NCBI GenBank assembly: GCA_958510825.1
Contig: OY294048.1
Coordinates: 25,431,887 to 25,495,886, forward strand
Direction: 5' to 3'
Origin: Brachypterus glaber
Lineage: Eukaryota; Arthropoda; Insecta; Coleoptera; Kateretidae
Length of the DNA stretch: 64,000 nt
Shown here piece by piece: positions 19,085-19,500 of this stretch (position 1 is its first letter; each line of letters begins with the position of its first letter). Below the pieces are notes generated by a model. That model had not been told where the DNA came from, ran no database searches, and saw only the letters and a list, made by a program, of their open reading frames with translations. The position numbers and the translations under genes were made by a program.

Positions 19085-19500
19085 TTCTGTGTCGTAAATT
19101 TTAACTATTATGTTACTGTCTTGAAAAACTGCTTTTATTATGTTGAACACTGTAGTCCAGTTAAGTTTGTCTAGTCCGCAGGCAATTTTTGGCATTGATA
19201 TAGTTTTTATATTAAATTTTAAAAGAAGTAATTTAAGATTTTGTAATGTTTGATATACTGTTTTATAGGATGGTTTTTCATAATAGTTTTCTTTGGTTAT
19301 CAAATAAAATATTCTTTTGTTATTAAATTTTATGTGTCCGATTTCACCTAATTTTTTATGTTGATTTTTTAATTTTTTTACTGAACCGAATTTATTTTTA
19401 AACTGCAGAGCGATTCCTTTATTCATCTCAAAATCTCGCGATACACAATGAGCAAGAGAGTTTCGAAAACTAAATAAATCGCCTTTTACATTACAAACAT
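19085..19500 (-). CDS. macro domain (TARG1/OARD1-like) embedded in Gypsy-1 pol
   Basis: Within the minus-strand frame 19681-18995 (228 codons), residues about 62-199 form a macro domain. Key blocks are GDLF with SLAHCVSRDFEMNKGIA (residues 67-91), QFKNKFGSVKKL, an IFYLITKENYYEKP strand and ISMPKIACGLDKLNW (161-175). The order and motifs match ADP-ribosyl-acceptor hydrolases of the TARG1/OARD1 type; family knowledge puts an active-site Lys in the FK-x-KFG region and an Asp in CGLD, and both are present here. The upstream residues (RWRLRLEEFDYDIIYKKGK, NADALSRI) are the end of the RNase H region and the downstream gene is integrase, so the domain is fused into pol. No stop or frameshift falls inside it although neighbouring domains are broken. 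Confidence 0.85.

Follow-up and report, generated by a model that had tools for sequence, protein, structure and literature searches.

A stretch of 64,000 nucleotides from the beetle Brachypterus glaber (contig OY294048.1, positions 25,431,887 to 25,495,886; hereafter the window) contains a long terminal repeat (LTR) retrotransposon that we assign to the env-bearing Ty3/Gypsy elements of the errantivirus type. Its Pol polyprotein includes an additional domain. The minus strand at 19498–19094 encodes a complete macro domain of the TARG1/OARD1 type, in frame with the end of RNase H. Domains of the same type are found in other retroelements, and their catalytic residues are mostly kept. The macro domain is most likely an active ADP-ribosylhydrolase carried along with Pol, and it may serve to counter a host defence.

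The domain lies in an open reading frame (ORF) of 248 codons on the minus strand (19741–18998), which opens with the C-terminal 52 residues of RNase H, continues through about 29 linker residues (19499–19585) into the macro domain (19094–19498; residues 82–216 of the ORF) and closes with a tail of 32 residues. An earlier reading of the DNA, the original prediction, had placed the domain at 19085–19500 in a frame of 228 codons. The placement was close, and both the limits and the frame length are corrected by the present values. The motifs that it had named, GDLF, FK-x-KFG (here FKNKFG) and MPKIACGLDKL, are all present. The domain scored 25.2 bits against Pfam Macro, for which the cut-off is 22, and it was also matched by our own macro profile. 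A sequence search of the PDB at E ≤ 0.001 gave five distinct matches. All of them were human C6orf130/OARD1/TARG1, and the best had an E value of 1.9e-33. A model of the domain was predicted from a 37-sequence alignment with a mean pLDDT of 93.3 and a pTM of 0.89. In the structure search with this model, the top eight matches were TARG1; 4j5s was superimposed with a TM-score of 0.93, a root-mean-square deviation of 1.0 and 43% identity. DarG macrodomains came next, and Poa1p and alphavirus macrodomains were lower. The sequence profile and both the sequence and the fold searches match a macro domain, the latter two specifically TARG1, which bears out the predicted TARG1-type domain inside the pol gene of an LTR element. 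A chance match or a mis-translation is ruled out by the E value against TARG1 and the predicted fold. A single macro copy was found by tblastn in the 64-kb window. The likeness to human TARG1 (PDB 4j5s, 4j5r, 4j5q, 2lgr) covers sequence, fold and the catalytic Lys and Asp. TARG1, with a length of about 152 residues, is a free-standing cell protein that removes ADP-ribose from proteins and DNA in human cells, whereas the domain in the window sits inside a Pol polyprotein.

The recurrence of the domain was examined by protein searches. The 248-residue frame matched 236 proteins at E ≤ 0.001, and the best 120 of the 236 were considered. Among these 120, at least six carry a precomputed RNase H domain (P0002, P0003, P0006, P0010, P0016 and P0118), an RNase H end was recognised by eye in P0032 and P0048, and most of the remaining matches are free-standing TARG1-like proteins. 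With a stretch of P0006 as the query, 55 proteins were obtained, 17 of which scored above 40 bits with our macro profile. The macro domain of P0124 matched eight proteins. Besides P0176 and proteins named from Thrips palmi and Anabrus simplex, these comprise five macro-carrying elements (P0124, P0173, P0174, P0175 and P0179). In P0123 (6 members) and P0124 (24 members), a single ORF contains RNase H, Macro, H2C2 and rve in this order, each above its Pfam cut-off. P0127 and P0175 are also single ORFs, running from the RNase H end through the macro domain to the integrase. Their macro domains scored 159.6 and 169.2 bits with our profile, while Pfam Macro was absent or below its cut-off. P0127 and P0173, both named from the aphid Uroleucon formosanum, continue from the macro domain through the integrase to a Baculo_F env. 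P0173 begins within the macro domain (Pfam Macro 22.2 against the cut-off of 22); its H2C2 is detected by Pfam and its rve is not, and our integrase profile does match it. In the aphid-type carriers, called group A, the macro domain runs nearly straight into H2C2. P0030, from the ladybird Coccinella septempunctata, and P0005 stop short of RNase H and show, by eye, a TVHxxxENPI-type tail after the macro domain. P0165 and P0171 are examples of macro-less errantivirus-type ORFs in which a tail of the same type precedes the integrase. Macro carriers were also found among environmental DNA sequences. The natural single ORFs P0123, P0124, P0127 and P0175 indicate that the domain is not confined to one copy, and a one-off insertion, an outcome that the original prediction had allowed for, is ruled out by the carriers in other elements. 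Scans of viral contigs for the DNA of relatives recognised no retroelement; one of these scans gave nine macro loci on contigs of 13–169 kb. A scan of genome contigs gave 12 macro loci in bacterial records, and at L020, the only one inspected, the neighbouring frames were unlike those of a retroelement.

Three further proteins were observed in these searches. P0176 has a TARG1-like macro domain with Lys and Asp kept, preceded by a weak PHD-finger match (17 bits, below the cut-off) and followed by a GDSL lipase. We take this make-up to be that of ORF1 in a long interspersed nuclear element (LINE) of the CR1 type, and P0176 may represent a non-LTR retrotransposon carrying a TARG1-like macro domain. 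In P0110 (14 members), the macro domain is followed by a LIDTGA stretch which, by eye, resembles a retroelement aspartic protease; Pfam detects only Macro. P0110 is perhaps a macro domain ahead of the protease in yet another element. Between its RNase H and its integrase, P0160 has a macro-like domain that has diverged strongly; the domain scored 52 bits with our profile and had no Pfam match.

The catalytic residues were located by alignment. The codon for the equivalent of TARG1 Asp125, a number and a catalytic role that we assume, is at 19169–19171 on the minus strand. The codon of the catalytic Lys is at 19292–19294 on the same strand and corresponds to Lys84, through which human TARG1 performs catalysis according to a passage of PMC8501950. 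The window departs from the family at none of the 14 examined positions, these two included. Of the 21 carrier rows, which include the LINE-like P0176 and P0110 with its protease-like tail, 20 retain Lys84 and 19 retain Asp125; the counts are 18/19 for Lys and 17/19 for Asp when P0176 and P0110 are set aside. Nine partial carriers (P0016, P0032, P0048, P0118, P0125, P0128, P0129, P0130 and P0131) and three proteins of unclear kind (P0040, P0051 and P0056) belong to neither group in the residue counts. The identity to four TARG1-type comparison proteins was 30–56% in 16 of the 17 measured carriers and 23–30% in the remaining one, P0160. The domain could act as a reader of ADP-ribose instead of an eraser, holding the preintegration complex, or the integrase, at sites of DNA repair or on ADP-ribosylated chromatin, like the chromodomain of chromoviruses. 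The position of the macro domain ahead of the integrase in every carrier that extends so far, and its closeness to H2C2 in group A, are consistent with such a tether, and P0160 retains its macro-like domain despite the loss of both catalytic residues, as a binder might. However, Lys84 and Asp125 would be unneeded by a pure reader, and their retention in nearly all rows favours hydrolysis over binding alone. We regard the reader as unlikely.

Trees were built in order to place the carriers among their relatives. The integrase tree has 26 rows, ten carriers including the window and 16 macro-less ORFs. The integrase of the window shares one supported clade (100/99) with those of P0156, P0159 (Pararge aegeria), P0162, P0165 and P0171, five ORFs that lack a macro domain. 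Seven other carriers group with aphid elements (86/72, together with P0139), P0135 is unplaced, and P0160 forms a long branch elsewhere (85/79). The carriers occupy about three places on this tree. Five changes of the carrier label are needed, and the starred branches force at least three, either gains or losses. The RNase H tree of 49 rows agrees with the integrase tree in grouping the window with six macro-less rows (96/96). In this tree, the macro-less aphid-type P0133, P0136, P0137 and P0138 do not extend beyond the macro position and are no true negatives, and P0134 and P0140 are likewise not counted as such. P0139, which lies inside group A without a macro domain, has just 60 residues between the RNase H end and the integrase, and the lack looks like a deletion.

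The macro tree was made from 67 hand-chosen rows, and the window is not grouped with the other carriers in it. For the constraint test, P0160, P0121, P0132, P0179 and P0126 were dropped. The carriers of group A with P0005, P0030, P0040, P0051 and P0056 then lie together to one side of a branch (92/93, not starred). Their likelihood cost was 4.95 log units when the window was added to them (p 0.41). With P0003 and P0010 included as well, the tree improved on the free one by 4.03 units (p 0.551), and a clade of the window, P0003 and P0010 alone gave p 0.482. A single ancestral capture is not rejected by this test. The identities were also compared with seven carriers (P0123, P0124, P0127, P0135, P0173, P0174 and P0175). 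The mean identity between the window and these carriers is 41.7% for the macro domain and 35.3% for the integrase. Among the seven themselves (18 pairs, with three close pairs left out), the values are 42.0% and 49.6%. The macro identity between the two lineages is about that within one lineage, whereas the integrase identity is much lower between them. We lean to several captures solely on account of the disagreement between macro and integrase identities; by this argument from identity, which is not a test, repeated capture or exchange of the module would fit better than one old capture followed by co-descent. As the original prediction supposed, the domain may have been taken from the host's own genome and not from a virus or a different element. 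A wider proposal is that arthropod retroelements took up TARG1-type hydrolases several times independently. In no fewer than two Ty3/Gypsy lineages this would have happened at the same point of pol, the junction of RNase H and integrase, and a LINE ORF1 may be a further case. The junction would then be a docking site in pol for an ADP-ribose eraser, and ADP-ribosylation of element proteins or complementary DNA (cDNA) would be a real defence. We offer this proposal tentatively and hold it to be rather doubtful as a whole.

The whole element spans 15425–23804 on the minus strand, as given by its LTR pair, target-site duplication and domain order. Apart from the target-site duplication, the features below are on the same strand. 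The 5' LTR (205 bp, 23600–23804) and the 3' LTR (206 bp, 15425–15630) were aligned and are one substitution and one indel apart across 205 bp. The LTR ends in coding orientation are AGTT...AACT, and the element is flanked by a 4-base TGCA duplication (15421–15424 and 23805–23808). We take the duplication of 4 bp and these LTR ends to be errantivirus traits. The insertion is young, because the LTRs are nearly identical and the duplication still flanks them. A primer-binding-site-like stretch, GGCGCAGTC, presumably of the tRNA-Ser type, adjoins the 5' LTR (23591–23599). It is followed by broken gag-like reading frames (21674–23063), which were named from position and frames, with no family match assigned. 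The N-terminal part of reverse transcriptase (RT; 20503–21255) gave no Pfam match at 0.01 and was recognised by tblastn similarity to the RT of a second element in the window (34% over 174 residues and 57% over 61 residues). The C-terminal part (19932–20384) was assigned from its reading frame and a YLDD motif seen by eye. The place of RT in the domain order thus rests on inspection by eye and on similarity inside the window, and not on Pfam. The main part of RNase H (19720–20073) matched Pfam RT_RNaseH_2 (3.1e-34) and RT_RNaseH (8.7e-32) and is in the frame adjacent to that of the macro domain. Its C-terminal 52 residues, ending in NADALSRI (19586–19741), share the frame of the macro domain and scored 16.6 bits against RT_RNaseH, under the cut-off of 24.8. 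Beyond the macro domain, the zinc-binding H2C2 and the rve core of an errantivirus-type integrase were found at 18001–18801 (Pfam 2.8e-18 and 2.1e-09, and tree). The C-terminal integrase frame (17457–18071) had a weak match to Integrase_p58_C (E 0.0048, below the cut-off). The env is in two parts, 17014–17538 and 16001–16657, with Pfam Baculo_F matches of 5.8e-07 and 1.2e-15, respectively.

The order RT, RNase H, integrase and Baculo_F env is common to errantiviruses and other env-bearing insect Ty3/Gypsy elements, and both the integrase and the RNase H of the window group with ORFs of that type. The LTRs with their duplication, the order of RT, RNase H and integrase, and the F-type env were all found. 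The element is accordingly classed as an errantivirus-type, env-bearing Ty3/Gypsy element, where the type of the grouping database ORFs was read from their sequence. The env also agrees with the retrovirus-like LTR element that had been predicted as the host of the domain. A pol of vertebrate Retroviridae is not indicated, since the integrase and the RNase H both fall among Ty3/Gypsy ORFs, in trees that hold no retroviral pol, and the env is Baculo_F. In contrast to the element in the window, the errantivirus-type ORFs in the clade of its integrase (P0156, P0159, P0162, P0165 and P0171) reach RNase H and have no macro domain.

For the function of the domain, we consider the following account probable. 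An env-bearing errantivirus-type element, with Pol in the order protease, RT, RNase H, macro and integrase, would have captured its ADP-ribosylhydrolase from a TARG1-like gene and retained it because it works. The macro domain would be synthesised within Gag-Pol and packaged in the particle. Pol products are packed in the particle in Ty3 elements, so that the macro domain would travel with RT and integrase and would reach the next cell together with them. There it may strip ADP-ribose, added by host ADP-ribosyltransferases, from proteins, RNA or cDNA of the element or from nearby host proteins, which would let reverse transcription and integration proceed. Most known viral macrodomains are those of RNA viruses, in which they act against defence by ADP-ribosylation. 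In a structure library of viral proteins, TARG1-like folds were found in VP8 of Kadipiro virus (38% identity) and a thrips flavi-like virus (35%), and also in several thrips-associated RNA viruses, Hubei virga-like viruses and iridescent viruses. These arthropod-associated viruses share the fold at about 25–38% identity, within a viral protein. They are RNA or DNA viruses that, unlike the element in the window, are not reverse-transcribing. Their TARG1-like folds fit repeated uptake and use of this domain type by viruses, and a counter-defence role is plausible.

The domain might also have a housekeeping role without any immune link, clearing ADP-ribose from the DNA or RNA ends of replication intermediates as end repair. 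On either side, the macro domain is joined to an enzyme that works on cDNA, and the next-best structural matches, the DarG macrodomains, act on DNA. Many relatives live without a macro domain, which speaks against such a need, and to our knowledge there is no evidence for ADP-ribosylation of retroelement cDNA, for which no search was made. In its passage on DNA, PMC8501950 reports that human TARG1 also takes ADP-ribose off thymidine. End repair is improbable in our judgement.

Several observations weigh against a retained and working hydrolase. The macro domain is intact beside broken flanks, as the original prediction pointed out. The coding part of about 7.4 kb is divided into 19 open stretches of at least 60 codons, some overlapping, from which we estimate roughly a dozen breaks. 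Some of these may be assembly errors, given that the LTR pair also has an indel. With a dozen breaks over this length, a stretch of 405 bases escapes with a probability near one half, and the intactness in this one copy is not significant. It was set aside as a weak sign of selection. The core positions vary more among carriers than in the 108 comparison proteins. The His32 position is altered in 5 of the 18 carriers having it (P0122, P0124, P0006, P0003 and P0160), and it is H in 107 of the 108 comparison proteins, with one gap. The Asp20 position is D in 13/18 carriers against 101/106 comparison proteins. Asp125 is missing from P0132, and both Lys84 and Asp125 from P0160. Macro-less elements are also common (16 of the 26 integrase rows, all 16 reaching RNase H, P0164 by eye), so that this kind of element does not need the macro domain. 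A fragment of a host or viral gene, acquired by chance and carried neutrally, would suit some of these facts: an intact domain is expected in a young element without selection, and the macro domain of some relatives is altered or degenerate. However, several divergent carriers hold it in frame between RNase H and integrase with the catalytic residues mostly kept, and the macro identity in group A is not much below that of the integrase, unlike free decay. We hold a neutral passenger to be very improbable.

Retroelements with captured cell enzymes are already known. A review (PMC4977317, citing Basta et al. 2009) describes additional macro-domain ORFs in epsilon-like endogenous retroviruses of fish. 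Like the element in the window, these are reverse-transcribing viruses with an acquired macro domain; theirs is in additional ORFs of vertebrate retroviruses, and the passage of the review states neither a location between RNase H and integrase nor a TARG1 type. Orchid Ty3/Gypsy elements have an AlkB-like domain of the N6-methyladenosine (m6A) demethylase kind, according to the relevant part of PMC9289625. It is likewise a captured cell enzyme that erases a modification, but it is another enzyme in an additional ORF and in a plant host. No published description of a macro domain between RNase H and integrase was found among the papers listed by a literature search that covered mostly open papers, bioRxiv preprints and repeat databases being outside it; some of the listed papers dealt with LSH/macroH2A and histones. 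A word search of the main text of a 2025 paper on insect endogenous retroviruses (PMC12992720) found neither 'macro' nor 'ADP-rib'. Within the literature searched, what is new here is the TARG1-type macro domain between RNase H and integrase. Such a domain with its catalytic residues, in the Pol of env-bearing insect retroelements of more than one lineage, would extend the conflict over ADP-ribosylation to retrotransposons. The macro-carrying elements hint at a conflict, so far little studied, between mobile elements and cell defences based on ADP-ribose. A testable question is raised, namely whether ADP-ribosylation of RT, integrase or cDNA is a barrier to retrotransposition, and the carriers, the non-carriers and the variants without catalytic residues provide a natural set for comparison.

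Other mobile elements were also seen in the window. The second errantivirus-like element (61372–63737), whose RT is 34–57% identical to that of the macro-carrying element, shows gag and protease by eye, and it is cut by the end of the window ahead of the macro position and the integrase. Another Gypsy element at 33514–38134 has terminal direct repeats of 114 bp that are 100% identical; its frame of 570 codons contains RT, RNase H and integrase by eye, with no macro domain seen. At 3163–5594, an integrase-like frame lies near a 391-codon frame, which by eye we take to resemble proteins of Maverick/Polinton-like elements. A Penelope-like reverse transcriptase with a GIY-YIG-like end was recognised by eye at 6780–8535.
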